This document shows, one piece after another, positions 4,294-12,863 of a stretch of DNA of 64,000 nucleotides. The position numbers and the translations under genes are program-made. Position 1 is the stretch's first letter, and every line of letters begins with the position of its first letter. The stretch spans positions 62,001 to 126,000 of the forward strand of contig NZ_SNUA01000006.1 of NCBI RefSeq assembly GCF_004360225.1, read 5' to 3'. A model generated the notes under the pieces. The model saw only the letters and a list, made by a program, of their open reading frames with translations. It made no database searches and was not told where the DNA came from. Source of the stretch: Alcanivorax sp. 24 (GTDB lineage Bacteria > Pseudomonadota > Gammaproteobacteria > Pseudomonadales > Alcanivoracaceae).

Positions 4294-4788
4294 TTGATGA
4301 CACAAAGATCCCGTCCTTCCTTTCCGTCCACACCCTGGTGCCGCTTCTTTTTAATCAATTACGTGCTTATTCTGATCGCCTGCCTGCATGTGGCGAGGCA
4401 GGCATTGCTGCAACCGGGCAGTGTCTGGAGCCTGCTCTTCCTGCTGGTGGACGGTCAGATCCATGATCTCTACGGTTTCCATCTTAACGGCTTCGTCTGG
4501 AATCTGTTGACCACGCCGGGGGGCTTCACCTCCATGGGGGCGGCCTATGGCGCCGCGCATTTTCTCGCTTACCGTCCGGTGCTCAACGCTTCCCAAGCGG
4601 TACCGTTTTATCAGCCCACCACGTTATGTCGTTTCTGGATCAGCGGAACGCGGCGGAACCGTTCTTCGGCTTTCTGTTTTTCGAGCGCGCTATTACTTTC
4701 CCGCGGAAAGCGTGATCCGGCCGGATTATCTGAAGAACTTCAACTACGCCACCATGGACCTGGAACAGGACATTGACGGTATTGTTAA
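4294..4788 (+). pseudogene. Remnant of an inner-membrane sulfatase-family protein (YejM/LTA-synthase-like)
   Basis: An ATG at 4294 opens a frame whose first hundred residues look real: one or two membrane helices (FFLINYVLILIACLHV) and then the conserved stretch DLYGFHLNGFVWNLLTTPGG, typical of the N-terminal part of membrane-bound sulfatase-superfamily transferases. After about base 4610 the sense continues only by changing frame. First comes EPFFGFLFFERA in one frame, then YYFPAESVIRPDYLKNFNYA in another, which resemble a segment near the end of the catalytic domain. Most of the catalytic domain is deleted, at least two frameshifts are needed, and the coding signal stops exactly at the left terminal repeat of the unit at 4789. 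I take it as a decayed gene truncated by repeat insertion or recombination. The exact subfamily is uncertain. Confidence 0.7.
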
Positions 4789-5173
4789 GGTTCATCGCGG
4801 TTTAGAAGGCCACGGCGCTTCAATCATGGGCACGGGTCTGTAACGGAAGGGGCTACCAACCGCTGTATTCGCCAGCAAGCTGGTCTCCCACGGATCATGC
4901 CACGAAGCCGCTGTGGGAAGTTTGCTTGCAAGCGAATCGCCAACGGCCCAGGGCATTCGCGGCCAAGCGGAGCGCCGCCGGGGCCGCTTCCCACGGCGGC
5001 TTCGTGGCATGATCTGAATCGATGTCTTCGAGGTAACCGAGCAATACGGGTCTCCTTTCCTCTCCTGGAAAGGTTTGTCGTTGTTGGCGTCCGCAACGCG
5101 GCGGTTCACTCGAATCGGGGCTGCACGGCCCCCCCCGGCCGGAGCGACCCTTCCCGCTAAACCGCGATGAACC
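4789..5173. repeat. TIR-bounded non-coding repeat unit A (385 bp)
   Basis: The unit is bounded by a perfect 17-bp inverted repeat, GGTTCATCGCGGTTTAG at 4789-4805 and its complement at 5157-5173. Its contents recur in unit B (12350-12746). The left arm of A is the reverse complement of the right arm of B and vice versa, while the REP-like centre (about 4903-5020) has the same orientation in both. No transposase or credible ORF lies inside. It could be a non-autonomous mobile element or an invertible segment. Confidence 0.85.
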
Positions 5174-5229
5174 ATAAAAAAAGCGTTGCTTAGTGCTTGC
5201 CAGGGCATTGGGTCTGGCTTTGCATTATC

Positions 5230-5313
5230 AGCGTCCAGCGTCCAGCGTCCAGCGTCCAGCGTCCAGCGTCCAGCGTCCAGCGTCCAGCGTCCAGCGTCCA
5301 GCGTCCAGCGTCC
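5230..5313. repeat. Heptamer tandem array, AGCGTCC x 12
   Basis: Twelve perfect head-to-tail copies of the 7-mer AGCGTCC (5230-5313) followed by a partial AGCG. The array is preceded by 56 bp (5174-5229) that are nearly the same as the bases before the GGCGTCC array at 12801. It ends about 25 bases upstream of the -10 box of the next gene. Reading it as protein gives periodic nonsense, so it is not coding. A perfect array like this should vary in copy number between strains. Confidence 0.97.
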
Positions 5314-5340
5314 AGCGGATAGTGCTACCCGGCCCGGGTT

Positions 5341-5349
5341 TGCTATACT
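5341..5349 (+). promoter_or_regulatory. Extended -10 promoter for the PP-loop gene
   Basis: TGCTATACT (5341-5349) is an extended -10 element (TGn plus TATACT). The expected -35 position (about 5321-5326) has only a weak match, as is usual for extended -10 promoters. The heptamer array ends just upstream. Transcription would start about 30 bases before the ATG at 5386. Confidence 0.55.
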
Positions 5350-5385
5350 CGCCGCCCATTTTTTGACCGGCACGCGAGCCGACCT

Positions 5386-6483
5386 ATGACCGAGTCAGCC
5401 CCTCGAACGCTGCAACAACCGCTGCAACGACGCGCCATCGCCCTGGTTTCCGGCGGCCTGGACTCCATGCTGGCGGTGAAAGTCATGCAGGAACAAGGCA
5501 TCCACGTCGAAGGGGTGAATTTCTTCACCGGCTTCTGCGTGGAAGGCCACACTCACGCCATTCGCAAGAAGGACAAGGACAAAAACAAGCGCAATAATGC
5601 GCTTTGGGTCGCCGAGCAGCTGGGTATCAAGCTGCATATCGTGGATATTTCGGAGGAGTACAAGGATGTGGTACTCAATCCGAAACACGGCTACGGCGCC
5701 AATCTGAATCCCTGCCTGGACTGCAAGATCTTCATGGTCAACAAGGCCACCCTGATGCTGAACAAGGCACGGGAGCTGGCCGGCGAGAAGGGGTTCGACT
5801 TCATCATCACCGGTGAGGTGGTGGGGCAGCGCCCCAAGAGCCAGCGCAAGGAAACCATGCCGATCATCAGCCGCGAATCCGGCGCCGATGACCGCCTGCT
5901 GCGCCCGCTCAGCGCCAGGAACCTGCCGGAGACCCTGCCGGAGCGGGAGGGCTGGGTGGATCGCAGCCGATTGCACGACTTCTCCGGCCGTAATCGCAAG
6001 CCGCAAATGGCACTGGCCAAGCGCTTTGGCCTGGATGACTTCGCCCAACCCGCCGGCGGCTGTTGCTTCCTTACCGATGAGTCCTATTCGCGCAAGCTGG
6101 CGGATCTGTGGCAAGCCCGTAACGAGCGCCGCTATGAACTGGATGACATCATGCTGCTGAAGGTGGGGCGGCATATCCGTCCGGCGCCGCACTACAAGCT
6201 GATCATTAGCCGTGAAGAAGGGGAGAACCGCTTCCTGGAAGGGTATCGGTATCAGTTCACCAGCATCACCACGTCGAGCTGCCCCGGTCCGCTGGCCCTG
6301 ATCGACGGTGAGCTGACATCCGATGAGGAACTGCGCCAGGCGGCCGCCATCGTCGCCCGTTATTCCAAGGGGCGAACCGATGACGAGGTGGTGGTGGAAG
6401 TGCGCGATCCCAGCGGCGTGGCTCGCCAGTTACCGGTGTGCCCGGCGACGCCGGATCAGGTGCCACAGGAATGGATGGTATAA
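5386..6483 (+). CDS. PP-loop ATPase of the MnmA/ThiI class with C-terminal NFACT-R-like domain
   Basis: 365 residues. The N-terminal half is an ATP-pyrophosphatase domain: the PP-loop is SGGLDSMLAVKV (about residues 22-33), followed by NPCLDCKIFMVNKA (Cys pair about 109-112) and AGGCCFLTDESYSRKLADLW (about 222-241). These features are typical of tRNA-thiolating enzymes, and such proteins are often annotated 'tRNA (5-methylaminomethyl-2-thiouridylate)-methyltransferase'. The C-terminal ~100 residues (from DDIMLLKVGRHIRP) resemble the RNA-binding NFACT-R-type domain seen in this subfamily. No THUMP or rhodanese domain is present, so it is not a normal ThiI. A TusA-like sulfur carrier follows 2 bases downstream, supporting an RNA thiolation role. 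It occupies the place, just before glnA, where Pseudomonas has thiI as I remember it. The modified nucleoside is unknown. Confidence 0.8.
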   Translation: MTESAPRTLQQPLQRRAIALVSGGLDSMLAVKVMQEQGIHVEGVNFFTGFCVEGHTHAIRKKDKDKNKRNNALWVAEQLGIKLHIVDISEEYKDVVLNPKHGYGANLNPCLDCKIFMVNKATLMLNKARELAGEKGFDFIITGEVVGQRPKSQRKETMPIISRESGADDRLLRPLSARNLPETLPEREGWVDRSRLHDFSGRNRKPQMALAKRFGLDDFAQPAGGCCFLTDESYSRKLADLWQARNERRYELDDIMLLKVGRHIRPAPHYKLIISREEGENRFLEGYRYQFTSITTSSCPGPLALIDGELTSDEELRQAAAIVARYSKGRTDDEVVVEVRDPSGVARQLPVCPATPDQVPQEWMV

Positions 6484-6485
6484 CC

Positions 6486-6728
6486 ATGAGCCATCATGAA
6501 TTGGACGCCCGCCGGTTGCTGTGTCCGATGCCGGTGATCAAAACCCAGAATCAAGTGAATGCGCTTCAACAAGGCGATACCCTGACGGTGATCTGCACCG
6601 ATCCGGGGGCGCTCAATGACATTCCCGCCTGGTGCCGGATCAATGGTCATGCGGTGCTGGAGACCCGGGAAGAAGGTCATGAGGTGCGGGTGACGCTTGA
6701 GATTGGGGAGTCTTCGATTGCACTGTAA
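6486..6728 (+). CDS. TusA-family sulfur carrier protein
   Basis: 80 residues, full length for the family. The sulfur-carrying cysteine is in RRLLCPMPVIKTQNQV (about residue 12), the CPxP motif of TusA/YeeD/SirA proteins. The rest (GDTLTVICTDPGALNDIPAWC, GHAVLETREEGHEVRVTLE) fits the small two-layer fold. The start ATG lies 2 bases after the stop of the PP-loop gene, so the two are co-transcribed, and this protein probably delivers persulfide sulfur to that enzyme. An NtrC box for the downstream glnA overlaps its last codons and stop (6719-6735). Confidence 0.9.
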   Translation: MSHHELDARRLLCPMPVIKTQNQVNALQQGDTLTVICTDPGALNDIPAWCRINGHAVLETREEGHEVRVTLEIGESSIAL

Positions 6729-6765
6729 TGGTGCGTTCTTGTCATGCATGCACAGTATTGGTGCT
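6719..6765. promoter_or_regulatory. Two NtrC enhancer boxes upstream of glnA
   Basis: Two matches to the NtrC consensus TGCACC-N5-GGTGCA: TGCACT-gtaat-GGTGCG at 6719-6735 and TGCACA-gtatt-GGTGCT at 6749-6765. Each has one mismatch per half-site. Their centres are 30 bp apart, about three helical turns, so two dimers would bind the same DNA face. They lie about 75-110 bp upstream of the sigma-54 promoter, a normal enhancer distance. The first overlaps the end of the tusA-like gene. Confidence 0.88.
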
Positions 6766-6826
6766 TTCATGCCGGGTATGCCGGCCGATTTCGGGGCGTT
6801 ACGGCCCGAATGCGCTAAAAAAGGGC

Positions 6827-6842
6827 TGGCACGTAATTTGCT
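6827..6842 (+). promoter_or_regulatory. Sigma-54 promoter of glnA
   Basis: TGGCAC-gtaat-TTGCT at 6827-6842 is a full match to the -24/-12 consensus, with the GG and GC dinucleotides correctly spaced. The glnA ATG follows at 6952, giving a leader of roughly 100 bases. Together with the two NtrC boxes it predicts nitrogen-limitation control by the GlnL/GlnG pair encoded downstream. Confidence 0.9.
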
Positions 6843-6951
6843 CACCTATTGGCATGCGGGGCCGAGTGCCCGAGAATAGCGGCTTCGAGTGGTCGGCCCG
6901 CCGATACCACTGAATGCCAGACACATACCCGTTCCAGGAGGACGTTCTACA

Positions 6952-8358
6952 ATGTCTGAAAAGACGCTGAAGCTGATCAAAGATAACGACGTGAAGTGGG
7001 TCGATCTGCGTTTTACCGATAGCCGGGGTAAGGAGCAGCACGTCACCATTCCGAGTTCGGAAGTGGACGAGGACTTCTTCCAGGACGGCAAGATGTTCGA
7101 TGGTTCTTCCATCGCTGGCTGGAAAGGTATCAACGAGTCCGACATGATCATGATGCCGGACGACAGTTCCGCGGTGATCGATCCGTTCACCGACGTTACC
7201 ACCCTGAACCTGCGTTGCACCATCGTCGAGCCCTCCACCATGCAGGGCTACGAGCGCGATCCCCGCTCCGTGGCTCAGCGCGCCGAGGAATATCTGAAGT
7301 CCACCGGCATCGCCGACAGCGCCCTGTTCGGTCCGGAGCCGGAATTCTTCGTGTTTGATTCCGTACAGTGGAAGTCCGACATGTCCGGCGCCATGTACAA
7401 CATCTACTCCGAAGAAGCGGCCTGGGTGTCCGCCGATGAGTTCGAGAAGAACAACATCGGTCACCGTCCGGGTGTGAAAGGCGGCTACTTCCCGGTACCG
7501 CCGGTGGATTCCCTGCACGACCTGCGCGCCGCCATGTGCGCCGCCATGGAGCAGATGGGCCTGGAAATCGAAGTGCACCACCACGAAGTGGGCACCGCCG
7601 GCCAGTGCGAAATCGGTGTTGGCGCCAACACCCTGACCGCCAAGGCCGACGAAGTTCAGATCCTGAAGTACTGCGTTCACAACGTGGCTCATGCTTATGG
7701 CAAGACCGCCACCTTCATGCCCAAGCCGCTGATCGGTGACAACGGTTCCGGTATGCACGTGCACGTGTCCCTGGCCAAGGACGGCAAGAACCTGTTTGCC
7801 GGCGACAGCTACGCGGGACTGTCCGAGGAAGCCCTGTACTTCATCGGCGGTATCATCAAGCACGCTCGCGCCATCAACGCCTTCACCAACGGTTCCACCA
7901 ACTCCTACAAGCGTCTGGTACCCGGTTTCGAAGCACCGGTAATGCTGGCCTACTCCGCCCGCAACCGTTCCGCTTCCATCCGGATTCCGTGGGTGAACAG
8001 CCCGAAAGCCCGTCGTATCGAGGCGCGCTTCCCGGATCCGTCCGCCAACCCGTACCTGTGCTTCGCGGCGCTGCTGATGGCCGGCCTGGACGGCATCAAG
8101 AACAAGATGCACCCGGGCGATGCCATGGACAAGGACTTGTACGATCTGCCGGCCGAGGAAGCTCAGGGCATCCCGACCGTGGCTCATACCCTGACCATGG
8201 CTCTGGATTGCCTGGAAGCGGACTACGAGTTCCTGATGGCCGGCGATGTGTTCACCAAGGACATGCTGGACGGTTACATCCAGCTCAAGCGTGAAGAGAT
8301 CGAGCGTCTGAACATGACTCCGCATCCGGTCGAGTTCGACATGTACTACAGCTGCTAA
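6952..8358 (+). CDS. glnA: Glutamine synthetase type I
   Basis: 468 residues, the normal length of the dodecameric GSI-beta enzyme, which makes glutamine from glutamate, ammonia and ATP in the cytoplasm. Start ATG 6952 is preceded by CAGGAGG and gives [20 protein letters not shown]. The family hallmarks are present: [14 protein letters not shown], the metal/glutamate region EFFVFDSV and [14 protein letters not shown], the ATP-binding stretch [14 protein letters not shown], and NRSASIRIP. The adenylylation site is in [12 protein letters not shown] near residue 395, so the enzyme can be regulated by GlnE, encoded at 29298. The promoter is sigma-54 type with NtrC boxes. A strong terminator follows. 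Confidence 0.98.
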
Positions 8359-8384
8359 GAATCCCAAGTTCCCGGCAGTTGCAA

Positions 8385-8410
8385 GGCCCCGCTCCGGCGG
8401 GGCCTTTTTT
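8385..8410 (+). terminator. Rho-independent terminator of glnA
   Basis: A perfect 8-bp stem, GGCCCCGC (8385-8392) with GCGGGGCC (8397-8404), loop TCCG, is followed at once by six T (8405-8410). It lies 27 bases after the glnA stop and separates glnA from the DUF4124-glnL-glnG genes. Confidence 0.93.
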
Positions 8411-8456
8411 GTGGTTCATGGCGGCATAACGATTGCTGGCACGGAAGGGGGGCTAT

Positions 8457-8542
8457 GAAGCCGCTGTGGGAAGCTTGCTTGCAAGCGAATGGGTTTCCGG
8501 GCCCCAAGATTCGCTTGCAAGCAAGCTTCCCACAGCGGCCTT
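8457..8542. repeat. REP-type inverted doublet
   Basis: Two nearly perfect inverted copies of a roughly 34-bp sequence with core GCTGTGGGAAGCTTGCTTGC (left 8457-8490, right 8509-8542) and an 18-base centre. The same core occurs at 17726, 54003, 56837 and inside units A and B. Together with the glnA terminator it fills the 314-base gap 8359-8672. Confidence 0.9.
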
Positions 8543-8672
8543 GTAGTAGTTTCCGAGTTTATGTCTCCAAGGCCCACAAAGGGCGGGGCCCATAGTGTGC
8601 CCCAGACCCTTTTATCCCTGTTCCGGTGCGGTCAGAATCAAAGCCATGACTCTTGGGGGAGAGGAGGACCGC

Positions 8673-9383
8673 ATGAAAACCACAACCGTTCTGTTGATCA
8701 CTTTGCTTGGCGTCTGCGCCGCTGTCTCGGTGCGGGCCGGCGATGTGTCGGAAACAGGGGGCGCGATGATCTTTCGTAGTGTCGATGAGCACGGCAACGT
8801 GACGTTCACTGACTCGCCGCCGAAGGGACGCGACGCGGAGGCGGTACGCATTGGCCCGACCAATACCGTGCCAGGGCCGCGACAGGAACGGCCGCCGGCC
8901 GAGCCGCCGGAGTCGTCGCTGCCGGTTTTCGAGGGCTACCAGCGTCTGGCGATTGTTTCCCCGCGGCCGAACGCCACGGTGCGCAATCCGGAGGGGCCGA
9001 TCAGCGTGGAAGTAGCGCTGGAGCCGGCGCTTCAGGCCGGGCACCGGCTTGAGGTTCTGGACAATGGCGAACCTTTGGCTGGAACCGCGCTGAGGGATCC
9101 GGAGCGGGGCAGTCATGTGCTGGTGGCGCGAGTGCTGGACCAGGAGGGCAAGGAGATCAAACGCTCCGCCACGGTCACGGTGCATGTGCATCGCACCAGC
9201 CGATTGCAAAGCGGTCAGGCACCGGCACCCAGTGGACGGGCAGGGATCGGGCAGGCTGCCCAGCGAGGGGGCGCCGCCAGCCCCGGGACCGGCAGTGCTC
9301 GCGGAAGTAGCGCGAAGACCGGTTCTCCGGCCTCCGTGGGCCAGCCTGCCAGCCGTGCTCAAACCGTCAAGCCCGATTCCTGA
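8673..9383 (+). CDS. DUF4124 domain-containing exported protein
   Basis: 236 residues from ATG 8673, chosen for the ribosome site GGGGAGAGGAGG just upstream and a proper signal peptide (MKTTTVLLITLLGVCAAVSVRAGD). The mature N-terminus MIFRSVDEHGNVTFTDSPP is the short DUF4124 domain (about residues 28-60). A beta-rich middle follows (LAIVSPRPNATVRNPEGPISVEVAL...). The last 60 residues are low-complexity Gly/Ser/Ala/Pro and likely disordered. DUF4124 proteins commonly sit between glnA and ntrB in Pseudomonas-like genomes, as here. It is probably periplasmic or envelope-associated. No biochemical role is known to me. Confidence 0.87.
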   Translation: MKTTTVLLITLLGVCAAVSVRAGDVSETGGAMIFRSVDEHGNVTFTDSPPKGRDAEAVRIGPTNTVPGPRQERPPAEPPESSLPVFEGYQRLAIVSPRPNATVRNPEGPISVEVALEPALQAGHRLEVLDNGEPLAGTALRDPERGSHVLVARVLDQEGKEIKRSATVTVHVHRTSRLQSGQAPAPSGRAGIGQAAQRGGAASPGTGSARGSSAKTGSPASVGQPASRAQTVKPDS

Positions 9384-9399
9384 CCCTCTTTCCATGATT

Positions 9400-9416
9400 C
9401 GCACCAAATCGGTGCA
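9400..9416. promoter_or_regulatory. NtrC box at the glnL promoter
   Basis: CGCACC-aaatc-GGTGCA at 9400-9416 differs from the NtrC consensus at one base. It lies about 20 bases upstream of a possible -10 box (TACACT, 9435-9440), where the -35 region would be. Such placement suggests NtrC repression of glnL-glnG transcription, as at enteric glnL. That is inference from position. Confidence 0.75.
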
Positions 9417-9552
9417 TCCCTTCCGCGTAGTGATTACACTGATTTTGGCCGCCTGGCCTTTTTGACGCCCTTCAGCGGTGCCCGGTATGCCTCATTCCGG
9501 CGGTTCTGACGGGTGGCCTGATAATTGCTTGTGCCCCGTTATGGGCCGAATC

Positions 9553-10656
9553 ATGAAGACCGAGAAGGTAATGCACAAACGCTTGCTGGATCACCTGCGT
9601 ACCGCGGTGATGCTGCTGGATGATGAGCTGCGGGTTTGTTATCTCAACCCGGCGGCGGAGATTCTGTTGTCCACCAGTGCCAGCCGGATCATCGGCCAAC
9701 TGCTGCCGGACTATTTCCATGATGATGGCAATGCCCGCGACGCACTAAAGCAGTGCATCGAGGACGGTAACCCCTTTACCCGCCGGGAGGCGAAGCTGGA
9801 TGTGACTCCCGGGGTGCAGGTAACGGTGGACTACAGTATTACGCCGTTACAGGAACCCGGTTATCCGATGGCGCTGCTGGTGGAAATGCAGGGGCTCGAC
9901 CGCATGCTCAAAATCAGCCGCGAGGAGGCTCTGGTGCACGCGCATCAGGCCACCCGCGCGTTGGTGCGGGGCGTGGCGCACGAAATCAAAAATCCGCTGG
10001 GTGGGATCCGCGGCGCCGCGCAACTGCTGGAGCGTGCTTTGCCCAGCCCGGATCTGGCTGAGTACACACGGGTAATCATCGACGAGGCGGACCGCCTGCG
10101 TTCAGTGGCGGATCGCATGCTCGGGCCGCGCAAACCGCCGGCGTTCGCCGACGTGAACGTGCACGAATGTCTGGAGCATGTGCGTCAACTGTTGCTGGCG
10201 GAATACCCTCAGGGGGTGCGCATCCTGCGCGACTACGATGTCAGTCTGCCGGACATCCCCGCCGACCGTGATCAACTGATCCAGGTGCTGCTCAATCTGA
10301 TGCGCAACGCGATTCAGGCGTTGTTGGAATCCGGCACCGAGGGCGCCCAGGTCCTTTTGCGCACCCGGGTATTGCGGCAATTCACCATCGGTTCCACCCG
10401 CCACCGTCTGGTGCTGCGGGTGGACATTGAAGATAACGGCCCGGGGATTCCCGAAGAGTTAAGGGAAACCCTTTTTTATCCCATGGTCAGCGGTCGAGCC
10501 AATGGCTCCGGCCTGGGTTTGTCCATTGCCCAATCCATCATCAGCCAGCACCAGGGGTTGATCGAATGCGACAGCGAACCGGGCCGGACCCTGTTCAGTT
10601 TGCTGCTGCCCATGGAGTTACCGGAAGCGAACTTCGCCACCTCGGATTCGGCCTGA
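9553..10656 (+). CDS. glnL: Nitrogen regulation sensor kinase NtrB
   Basis: 367 residues from ATG 9553 (MKTEKVMHKRLLDHLRTAV). An upstream in-frame ATG at 9541 is possible, but earlier ones would add unrelated residues. There is an N-terminal PAS domain (about 10-115: HLRTAVMLLDDELRVCYLNPAAE). The dimerisation/histidine box is RGVAHEIKNPLGGIRGAAQ (His about residue 147), and the ATPase domain has N-box NLMRNAIQALL, G1 DNGPGIP and G2 GSGLGLSIA. No membrane segment is present, so it is cytosolic as expected. It phosphorylates or dephosphorylates NtrC under PII control. glnG follows after 41 bases. Confidence 0.96.
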   Translation: MKTEKVMHKRLLDHLRTAVMLLDDELRVCYLNPAAEILLSTSASRIIGQLLPDYFHDDGNARDALKQCIEDGNPFTRREAKLDVTPGVQVTVDYSITPLQEPGYPMALLVEMQGLDRMLKISREEALVHAHQATRALVRGVAHEIKNPLGGIRGAAQLLERALPSPDLAEYTRVIIDEADRLRSVADRMLGPRKPPAFADVNVHECLEHVRQLLLAEYPQGVRILRDYDVSLPDIPADRDQLIQVLLNLMRNAIQALLESGTEGAQVLLRTRVLRQFTIGSTRHRLVLRVDIEDNGPGIPEELRETLFYPMVSGRANGSGLGLSIAQSIISQHQGLIECDSEPGRTLFSLLLPMELPEANFATSDSA

Positions 10657-10697
10657 CAGGCCGGCCGGTGGCCAGATGATGTAGGGAGAGCACAGGC

Positions 10698-12122
10698 ATG
10701 ACCTCGACCATATGGGTGATTGACGATGACCGTTCCATCCGCTGGGTGCTGGAGAAAGCGCTCAGCCAGGAAGGGTTTCAACTGGCCTGTTTCGAGGATG
10801 CGGATGAGGCCCTGAATACCCTGGAAGAAGGTGCCAGGGAGCCGGATGTGCTGATTTCCGACGTGCGCATGCCCGGTACCGACGGGCTGCGCATGCTGAA
10901 GATTCTGCAGCGCAAGCACCCGGATCTGCCCGTTATCATCATGACCGCGCACTCGGATCTGGACTCGGCGGTGGCCTCCTATCAGGGCGGCGCATTCGAA
11001 TATCTGCCCAAACCGTTCGATGTGGACGAGGCGGTGGCTTTGGTGAAACGGGCCATCAAGCACCGTCAGGAAGCCCAGGGCGAAGCGGTGGTGGCCAACG
11101 AGGAAACCCCCACCGAGATCATCGGAGAAGCGCCGGCCATGCAGGAGGTGTTTCGCGCCATCGGGCGGCTCAGCCACTCCAATGTCACCGTGCTGATCAA
11201 CGGCCAGTCGGGCACGGGTAAGGAGTTGGTGGCGCGGGCGCTACACCGTCATTCCATGCGCCGGGAAAAGCCGTTCGTGGCGCTGAACATGGCGGCGATC
11301 CCCAAGGACTTGATCGAATCCGAGTTGTTCGGCCATGAAAAAGGCGCGTTCACCGGCGCCAATGCCCAGCGGGTCGGCCGCTTCGAGCAATCCAATGGCG
11401 GCACCCTGTTTCTGGATGAGATCGGTGATATGCCGCTGGAGGCCCAGACGCGACTGCTGCGGGTGCTGCAGGAAAACGAGTTCTACCGGGTCGGCGGTAC
11501 CACGCCGATTCATGTGGATGTGCGTATCATCGCCGCCACCCACCAGGATCTGGAACGGTTGGTGCGCGAGGGCGATTTCCGCGAAGACCTGTTCCACCGT
11601 CTCAATGTTATTCGCATCCATATCCCGAAACTGGCGGAGCGTCGGGAAGACATACCGCAACTGGCCGGGTATTTCCTGCAACGGGCCGCCAGCGAGCTGG
11701 GCGTGGAGCCCAAGGTACTGCACAAGGACACCGAAAAGTACCTGGCGGCATTGCCCTGGCAAGGTAATGTGCGTCAACTGGAGAACACCTGCCGTTGGCT
11801 GACGGTGATGGCCTCCGGCCGGGAGGTGCTGGTGGACGACCTGCCGCCGGAACTGCGCCAGTCAGTGGGACGGCCCAGCGAAGGCGGCGGCGACTGGCAG
11901 AAATCCCTGCGCCAGTGGGCGGACCGGGCGCTTGCCCAGGGCGATCGGGCGATCCTGGACCAGGCGGTGCCGGTGTTCGAGCGCACCATGATTGAAGTGG
12001 CGCTGCAGCATACCGGCGGCCGTAAGCGCGACGCGGCGGCGTTGTTGGGGTGGGGCCGCAACACCCTGACCCGCAAGATCAAGGAGCTGGACATGGAAGC
12101 GGAGTTCAGCGGCGAGGATTGA
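10698..12122 (+). CDS. glnG: Nitrogen regulator NtrC, sigma-54 activator
   Basis: 474 residues. The receiver domain (1-120) has the phosphoacceptor Asp near 55 in VLISDVRMPGTDG. The central AAA+ domain (about 138-375) has Walker A GQSGTGKE, the sigma-54-contacting loop GHEKGAFTGA and Walker B GGTLFLDEIGD. The C-terminal Fis-type helix-turn-helix is GRKRDAAALLGWGRNTLTRK. This is the normal architecture and length. It is paired with glnL and is the expected activator of the glnA promoter described above. Downstream come a heptamer array and hairpin-rich repeats that probably end the transcript. Confidence 0.98.
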   Translation: MTSTIWVIDDDRSIRWVLEKALSQEGFQLACFEDADEALNTLEEGAREPDVLISDVRMPGTDGLRMLKILQRKHPDLPVIIMTAHSDLDSAVASYQGGAFEYLPKPFDVDEAVALVKRAIKHRQEAQGEAVVANEETPTEIIGEAPAMQEVFRAIGRLSHSNVTVLINGQSGTGKELVARALHRHSMRREKPFVALNMAAIPKDLIESELFGHEKGAFTGANAQRVGRFEQSNGGTLFLDEIGDMPLEAQTRLLRVLQENEFYRVGGTTPIHVDVRIIAATHQDLERLVREGDFREDLFHRLNVIRIHIPKLAERREDIPQLAGYFLQRAASELGVEPKVLHKDTEKYLAALPWQGNVRQLENTCRWLTVMASGREVLVDDLPPELRQSVGRPSEGGGDWQKSLRQWADRALAQGDRAILDQAVPVFERTMIEVALQHTGGRKRDAAALLGWGRNTLTRKIKELDMEAEFSGED

Positions 12123-12136
12123 AAAGGGGCGGGGCG

Positions 12137-12157
12137 CCAGACGCCAGACGCCAGACG
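12137..12157. repeat. Short heptamer array, CCAGACG x 3
   Basis: Three perfect copies of CCAGACG (12137-12157) begin 15 bases after the glnG stop. The unit is close to the reverse complement of the GGCGTCC units at 12801-12856, so the two arrays form the inverted ends of a roughly 725-bp repeat block. Confidence 0.9.
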
Positions 12158-12192
12158 CTAAAGTCAAAACCCGGGCTGCGGGCGTTGCGGAA

Positions 12193-12340
12193 ATAAAAAA
12201 TTGCCGGGAGCAATTTTTAACGTTGCTGTGCGACGGCCCGAAGGGTGACCGCCATGGATGGCGGTCATAAAAAATTGCCGGGAGCAATTTTTAACGTTGC
12301 TGTGCGACGGCCCGAAGGGTGACCGCCATGGATGGCGGTC
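12193..12340. repeat. 74-bp tandem duplication with two hairpins per copy
   Basis: Two head-to-tail copies of a 74-bp unit (12193-12266 and 12267-12340) that look identical, followed by a partial third start. Each copy holds the hairpin AAAAATTGC/GCAATTTTT (9-bp stem, 5-base loop, ending in a T run) and the perfect palindrome GACCGCCATGGATGGCGGTC. The first hairpin looks like a bidirectional terminator and probably ends the glnL-glnG transcript. Confidence 0.93.
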
Positions 12341-12349
12341 ATAAAAAAA

Positions 12350-12746
12350 GGTTCATCGCGGTTTAGCGGGAAGGGTCGCTCCGGCGGGGGCTCCCGTATT
12401 GGTCGGTTACCTCGAAGACCTCCCTTCAGAGGTGGCTACAGCGCCGCTGTGGGAAGCTTGCTGGCAAGCGAATCGCCAATGGCTCAGGGCATTCGCGGCC
12501 AAGCGGAGCGCCGCCCGGGCCGCTTCCCACAGCGGTTTCGTGGCAGATCCGTGGGAGACCAGCTTGCTGGCGAATTCCGGCCCTCTGATGTTGGGATATT
12601 CGCTTGCCAGCAAGCTTCCCACAGCGGCTTCGTGGCATGATCCGTGGGAGACCAGCTTGCTGGCGAATACAGCGGTTGGTAGCCCCTTCCGTTACAGACC
12701 CGTGCCCATGATTGAAGCGCCGTGGCCCGCCAAACCGCGATGAACC
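12350..12746. repeat. TIR-bounded non-coding repeat unit B (397 bp)
   Basis: Bounded by GGTTCATCGCGGTTTAG at 12350-12366 and its inverted copy at 12730-12746 (two mismatches), with the direct repeat TAAAAAAA just outside both ends (12342-12349 and 12747-12754), which could be an 8-bp target duplication. Its arms are those of unit A in the opposite order and orientation. The REP-like centre is in the same orientation and carries an extra partial copy (about 12555-12660). No ORF of substance is present. With the neighbouring arrays it fills the 795-base gap 12123-12917. Confidence 0.85.
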
Positions 12747-12800
12747 TAAAAAAAGGCGTTTTAGTGCTTGCCAGGGCGTTGGGTCTGGTTTTGCATTATC

Positions 12801-12863
12801 GGCGTCCGGCGTCCGGCGTCCGGCGTCCGGCGTCCGGCGTCCGGCGTCCGGCGTCCGGCGTCT
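12801..12863. repeat. Heptamer tandem array, GGCGTCC x 8
   Basis: Eight perfect copies of GGCGTCC (12801-12856) plus a final GGCGTCT. The array differs from the one at 5230 by one base per unit yet is preceded by nearly the same 54-56 bp. Its last bases run straight into the -35 box of pip. Confidence 0.96.

Follow-up and report, generated by a model that had tools for sequence, protein, structure and literature searches.

The window analysed here, a stretch of 64,000 nucleotides from Alcanivorax sp. 24, contains two units that share 17-bp terminal inverted repeats (TIRs). The first, unit A (4789 to 5173, 385 bp), begins exactly where a remnant of a DUF3413/sulfatase gene (4294 to 4788, forward strand) is cut off. 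Its left TIR (4789 to 4805, forward strand), of sequence GGTTCATCGCGGTTTAG, is matched exactly by its right TIR (5157 to 5173, reverse strand). The left TIR is followed by a non-coding 'head' arm (4806 to 4866, forward strand), a pair of REPs of the RAYT type (4867 to 4937, forward strand) and a REP/centre segment (4907 to 5009, forward strand), at the ends of which lie 28-bp inverted arms (4893 to 4920 and 4987 to 5014). The head of A is thus on the left; its tail, on the right, is of subtype 't2', with an extra module, and its centre is designated 'c2'. Unit B (12350 to 12746, 397 bp) belongs to the same MITE family, with the tail (subtype 't1') on the left, the head on the right and a centre designated 'c1'. 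Its left TIR (12350 to 12366, forward strand) is an exact match to that of A, and its right TIR (12730 to 12746, reverse strand) has a single mismatch (it reads ...TTTGG). Further paired units like A and B measure 255 to 1134 bp. No transposase gene was found within A or B, and the open reading frames drawn across both fall on the repeats themselves.

Alignment of the two units revealed a nested pattern. The head half of A is identical to the reverse complement of B at 167 of 179 positions, the tail ends are 98% complementary over 41 nt, and the REP pair of B (12598 to 12668, reverse strand) is an inverted match to 4867 to 4937. The REP/centre segment of B (12443 to 12545, forward strand) is a 93% direct match to that of A; over the centre as a whole, 100 of 107 positions are identical in direct orientation (unit positions 119 to 226 of A and 94 to 200 of B). 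The right flanks also match directly, at 63 of 67 positions. The coordinates and terminal repeats given in the original prediction proved correct, with three ends exact and one carrying a mismatch, and the direct match of the right flanks was recovered as predicted. The proposed exchange of reverse-complemented arms around a centre of constant orientation was also recovered by alignment, with one reservation: the tail of A equals that of B with a module of some 80 bp added, which B lacks, and A is therefore not simply B turned round. The anatomy observed for A and B is real. The idea that both units sit upstream of a promoter could not be substantiated, as consensus scans of the forward strand detected no promoter at either stretch; on the reverse strand, one weak match was seen, at A.

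A search of the whole genome (4.76 Mb) for further copies, as proposed with the original prediction, returned 83 TIR-like ends of a non-coding family at two mismatches or fewer, compared to none for a reversed-pattern control, so the terminal repeats of A and B are beyond chance. ISL3 elements make 8-bp target duplications. Perfect 8-bp direct duplications were found at 7 of the 27 TIR pairs, and a further 4 pairs matched at 7 of 8 letters; in the other 16, fewer than 7 letters were duplicated. Permuting the right flanks gave a mean of 3.1 perfect duplications, compared to 7 observed (21 of 5000 permutations reached 7), and a mean of 7.2 pairs with at least 7 letters, compared to 11 observed (112 of 5000 were as high); some duplication-like matching is expected by chance, because the targets are A/T runs. 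For B, the duplication is perfect over all 8 letters, TAAAAAAA being present on both sides (12342 to 12349 and 12747 to 12754, forward strand). When the flanks of A were compared, no target duplication was found (TTAA/ATAA), so that this property holds for B and for the family, not for A itself. We conclude that the ends of A and B are transposon TIRs that make 8-bp target duplications in T/A-tracts. The same TIR bounds other types of MITE as well, with a palindromic interior (...GGACAGCGGAGCCGTGTTACGCCTTTGCGGGAACG... or variants), at loci L184-L189, L195, L198, L201, L202, L221 and L222.

With up to 3 mismatches allowed, a 23-nt version of the TIR pattern occurs in 24 of 57 genomes, including that of strain 24, and all 24 belong to one bacterial family. 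The reversed pattern gave one match, in a genome (G050) that has no TIR match. In genome G033, a 401-aa open reading frame lying between such TIRs is an ISL3 transposase (PF01610, 2.1e-67; NF033550, 1.8e-102, above cut-off); homologues were found in G004, G005, G010 and G011 at 73 to 76% identity, and in G006 at 52%. The ISL3 copies of G004, G005, G010, G011 and G033 carry a 12-nt TIR core with at most one mismatch. Relative to the 17-nt TIR, their left ends differ by 1 or 2 letters and their right ends by about 3; the TIRs of A and B thus match those of an autonomous ISL3 element. The MITE tails were compared with the left end of the insertion sequences from TIR position 13 inwards, a range that takes in the last TIR letters, and gave best z values of 6.8 (B) and 7.0 (A); 4 of the 10 left ends compared scored z 5.0 to 7.0 with both tails. 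The MITE head scored with one left end alone (L294, z 4.3 to 4.8) and showed no likeness to the right ends beyond the TIR (z at most 1.3). A transposase of this ISL3 family is the putative mobiliser of A and B in trans.

A profile search of the strain's own genome detected no ISL3 transposase: the single PF01610 match lies in a 400-aa open reading frame that looks desaturase-like, in line with DesA/ISL3 tail models. Inspection by eye of the open reading frames of at least 100 aa revealed no transposase at the solo-TIR loci L193 and L203. Among the matches listed, none to the head arm (with its TIR) came from the 37 other genomes, and of 13 genomes queried with the ISL3 protein, not one combines a head-arm MITE with a close transposase. 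With the head arm found nowhere else and no ISL3 transposase detected in the strain's own genome, elements of the A/B kind are, among the genomes searched, confined to this lineage and orphaned; the transposase is now lost from the genome or missing from the assembly.

The right flank shared by A and B turned out to be one half of a separate dispersed repeat, designated 'H'. A query with this flank gave at least 40 matches across the genome, A and B included (the best 40 of 52 candidates). As half of a dispersed repeat, the flank is a common target or carrier of A and B, not a product of recombination between them. H also occurs 'empty', that is, without a MITE. Such copies open with heptamers (GCCGGAC-like); then come a left half whose last letters are TTGCGGAAATAAA or variants of it, a right half starting with AAGCGTTTTAGTGCTTGCC, and inverse heptamers (GGCGTCC-like). 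One of them (L230) folds as one long hairpin, as do the two flanks of B when joined. At B, the left half of H (12136 to 12186, forward strand) has 3 heptamers (12136 to 12156), and the right half (12755 to 12856, forward strand) has 8 (12801 to 12856). At A, only the right half is present (5174 to 5313, forward strand), with 12 heptamers (5230 to 5313). Between the left half of H and unit B, a 74-bp module, 'M', occurs twice in tandem (12187 to 12334, forward strand); in many copies of H, it occupies the same A/T tract. An M-bearing H without MITE reads ...GGCGGTCATAAAAAAGCG, and a filled H reads ...GGCGGTCATAAAAAA, followed by the MITE and ATAAAAAAGGCG. M at B comprises a short hairpin (AAAAATTGCCGGGAGCAATTTTT) plus GACCGCCATGGATGGCGGTC, placed as if inserted with a duplication of ATAAAAAA. 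The tandem heptamers (GCCAGAC / GGCGTCC / AGCGTCC) bound H in inverse orientation, with variable copy number, and heptamer arrays are found at or near the ends of contigs C5, C26 and C30.

Comparison with relatives provided some indications on the history of the two loci. In G008, a sulfatase-like open frame continues across the point at which A starts, and the corresponding stretch of G007 is collinear; the remnant itself is degraded, with internal deletions relative to G007, and the stretch is absent in G006. The gene ends at the left TIR of A, the left half of H is gone, and the target duplication is lacking. A deletion probably removed the left half of the target together with the end of the sulfatase gene; recombination of one MITE copy with another, or an aberrant transposition, may have caused it. 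At the same locus, G001 has a heptamer-bounded element without MITE and with a different interior. The composite found at B is absent from the orthologous place in G006, G007 and G008; a REP pair is found there instead in G006, and a REP-like piece in G008.

For MITEs lying outside H, the sequence preceding the T-tract was analysed. A terminator-like hairpin that ends at the T-tract and reaches -8 kcal/mol or lower was present at 14 of 18 T-side sites, compared to 6 of 25 control T-tracts, the controls being runs of six or more within the window (Fisher, p = 0.0007). The 18 sites comprise 16 non-H T-side ends and two that were added by hand (C2:97618 and C3:298424). With a stricter, perfect-stem test, the proportions were 9 of 16 and 1 of 25. 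In the relatives, a hairpin precedes the T-tract at 8 of 9 T-side ends of ISL3 elements (Fisher, 0.001 relative to the controls). These nine are the ends whose T side is visible; copies seen from the A side only were left out, as were L294 and L319, with no T-tract at their visible flanks, and L297, where the flank is merely A/T-rich. Several of the palindromic-interior MITEs with the same TIR also sit at terminators.

The cargo of the MITEs consists of REPs. Between head and tail, REP pairs succeed each other at a spacing of about 92 bp, with 0 to 13 pairs per element for the motif used. The search for a RAYT gene that had been suggested was successful: one gene scores above the NCBIfam cut-off (L240 on contig C12; NF047646, 118.8 bits for a cut-off of 80), and two homologues score below it. 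Arrays of the REP type seen in the MITEs flank the gene at L240; in these arrays, one REP differs from that of the MITEs by 0 to 1 mismatches in 25 and the other by 2 to 4 in 31; the REP pairs of A and B therefore match those beside the RAYT gene. The two homologues are Y1_Tnp proteins of 231 aa (L241, G000:C16) and 243 aa (L242, G000:C21), and the former adjoins three copies resembling M, spaced 77 bp apart, all of which differ from the motif at 4 positions. REP pairs were also found outside MITEs, and in relatives that have no match to the head arm: G006, G007 and G008 all have REPs, and among the matches listed none in these genomes is to the head arm, so that they offered no common insertion whose orientation could be compared. 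Within the window, a stand-alone pair of the REP kind found in the MITEs (8452 to 8546; 38-nt arms, 92% complementary and 18 nt apart) lies downstream of a glnA-like gene. A and B are thus ISL3-type MITEs enclosing RAYT-type REP pairs.

We then considered the orientation of the units. Within H, the T-side end is the head in 25 copies and the tail in 6; at unrelated terminators, it is the head in 7 and the tail in 2 (Fisher, p = 1). These tallies were counted by eye and leave out two sites: C6:228346, a tail-like one located at a terminator, and C19:21001, whose head is on the A side. If both are added as tail, the terminator count becomes 7 to 4 (p = 0.41). On these small numbers, copies in H do not differ in their mix of orientations from insertions at other places. 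Centre orientation was c1 in 16, c2 in 12 and unclassified in 10 of 38 listed elements. Left out of this list were two c1 units, C15:58218 and C15:117992 (M lies beside the tail, and the head and right half of H fall outside the stretch fetched), as well as C18:44613 (c2, outside H), C18:82349, C7:41957/42545, C5:208571 and MITEs with other interiors. All 16 listed c1 units lie head-towards-H, and the listed units that lie outside H or tail-towards-H are all either c2 or unclassified (among head-towards-H units, 16 c1 and 4 c2, compared to 0 c1 and 8 c2 among the others, P = 0.00016); the six tail-adjacent copies in H comprise 3 c2 and 3 unclassified. H-hosted copies may have multiplied as composites of H, M and MITE, and so are not independent events. 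A tree of the head arms had little resolution, with 2 of its 23 inner branches starred; 5 changes of centre label are needed on it, and the labels are clustered (3 of 500 shuffles were as low). This distribution fits one or a few inner inversions, a number that we infer, followed by amplification, and the tree does not force more than one. An inversion between the REP arms is supported as having occurred at least once in the history of the family.

The mirrored pattern that had attracted attention is accounted for by A being a t2, c2 unit lying tail-towards-H and B a t1, c1 unit lying head-towards-H. The original prediction explained it by recombination both at the 17-bp ends and at the inner REP arms. 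The inner part is upheld by the two centre orientations, 16 c1 and 12 c2; the outer part is not, as the ends are TIRs with target duplications and H occurs empty. In our preferred reading, to which we give a probability of about 85%, A and B are non-autonomous copies of ISL3-type MITEs, inserted separately and in either orientation into T-tracts next to hairpins, and they do not form a flipping switch. This reading draws on the observed family, its TIRs, target duplications and target context, on the transposase of the relatives, and on empty H. Since copies can be pasted in either direction, the opposite orientation of A and B most likely reflects separate insertions, not a flip. According to this scenario, an ISL3-family transposase would recognise the MITE ends and paste copies, in either orientation and with an 8-bp duplication, into T-tracts, mostly just after the hairpin of an intrinsic terminator; the A/T tract in the middle of H, between its heptamer-bounded hairpin halves, would serve as a second target. 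Inside the MITE, REP pairs would expand into tandem arrays (up to 13 were counted), and inversion between inverted REP arms would have flipped the centre at least once, both forms being then amplified. A would be a t2/c2 copy that lay tail-towards-H and then suffered a deletion on its left, and B a t1/c1 copy lying head-towards-H.

Three other explanations have to be weighed against separate insertion. If the units were switches operating in place, site-specific or homologous recombination at the 17-bp ends would flip the unit, and the REP arms would flip the centre. Units do exist in either outer orientation relative to H (head in 25, tail in 6) and with either centre orientation, and two elements with sister head arms (C11_42, c2, and C15_38, c1; support 92/91) differ in their centres. 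However, a switch leaves out of account the 8-bp target duplications and the copies of H found empty, the orientation ratio is not different at unrelated terminators, the tail module of A is absent from B, and c1 is not seen in any of the 6 tail-adjacent copies. Nor did the search for an invertase, also suggested at the outset, yield a candidate: for serine recombinases, the class covered, a PF00239 profile found no match in the strain's own genome, while 10 of 14 control genomes were positive. An invertible element of the Hin/Gin type was rejected on this absence of PF00239. Inversion in place at the outer ends was discarded as the main reading in view of the target duplications, empty H and an orientation ratio like that found elsewhere; it is not needed and is unsupported, and we regard a switch as very improbable.

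A more serious contender is that H, M and MITE spread as one composite, in which case the flank match would reflect common descent of the block rather than repeated insertion. All 16 listed c1 elements lie head-towards-H, the MITE end adjoining M is the tail in 13 of 14 cases, and three elements (C11_255, C26_25 and C31_6) have identical head arms. Yet the parts also occur apart, as empty H, as H with or without M and as MITEs at plain terminators; a MITE of a different type sits beside H at C3:419655, and the two c1 units that the list does not include (C15:58218 and C15:117992) show M beside the tail with no view of the head or of the right half of H. Spread of the block is a possible, if doubtful, source of the flank match. 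It is, by comparison, hardly credible that RAYT alone moved the entire unit as a REP/BIME product, with the TIRs as passive passengers. The genome does hold a RAYT gene with matching REP arrays, and REP pairs outside MITEs (8452 to 8546), but the precise TIR boundaries, the 8-bp duplications, the matching ISL3 elements and the MITEs that have the same TIR around another interior all speak against it.

Separate insertion of ISL3-type MITEs places A and B among known systems. They share with ISL3 insertion sequences a TIR, an 8-bp duplication and a T-tract habit that match the ISL3 copies of relatives, and differ from them in having no transposase gene, in being much shorter and in being filled with REPs. 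BrickBuilt, a Porphyromonas gingivalis MITE with a minisatellite, is likewise intergenic and has a leader and a tail around a tandem array; its 23-nt repeat has no spacers, whereas the A/B family targets terminators, has ISL3-type TIRs and contains REP pairs spaced by about 92 bp (PMC4596501). RAYT-associated REP, BIME and REPIN sequences similarly form REP pairs of alternating orientation and arrays beside a RAYT gene; A and B stand apart from these (PMC2817692, PMC3116915) in that a transposon with TIRs and target duplications surrounds the array. For IS1272 (IS1182 family), inverted-repeat targets guide insertion, as in A and B; that element replaces the inverted repeat without duplication, while the A/B family keeps the hairpin and duplicates the T-tract (PMC5678879). 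A literature search on ISL3 with terminators or on Alcanivorax MITEs found no description by title or abstract among the matches listed, which leaves absence unproven. The kind of element is known, namely ISL3-type MITEs; those described here favour terminator T-tracts and enclose REP arrays.

What was supposed to be a DNA switch becomes a case of target-guided transposition, and inversion is not required to produce mirrored repeats whose flanks match. We suggest, tentatively, that a branch of ISL3 transposases in the Alcanivorax family targets intrinsic terminators, where insertion would be nearly harmless, and that its MITEs may carry and expand REP arrays maintained by RAYT, an unrelated transposase, forming a two-enzyme composite parasite at transcript ends. 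If the terminator preference holds, it would offer a testable route for the spread of mobile DNA at the ends of operons.
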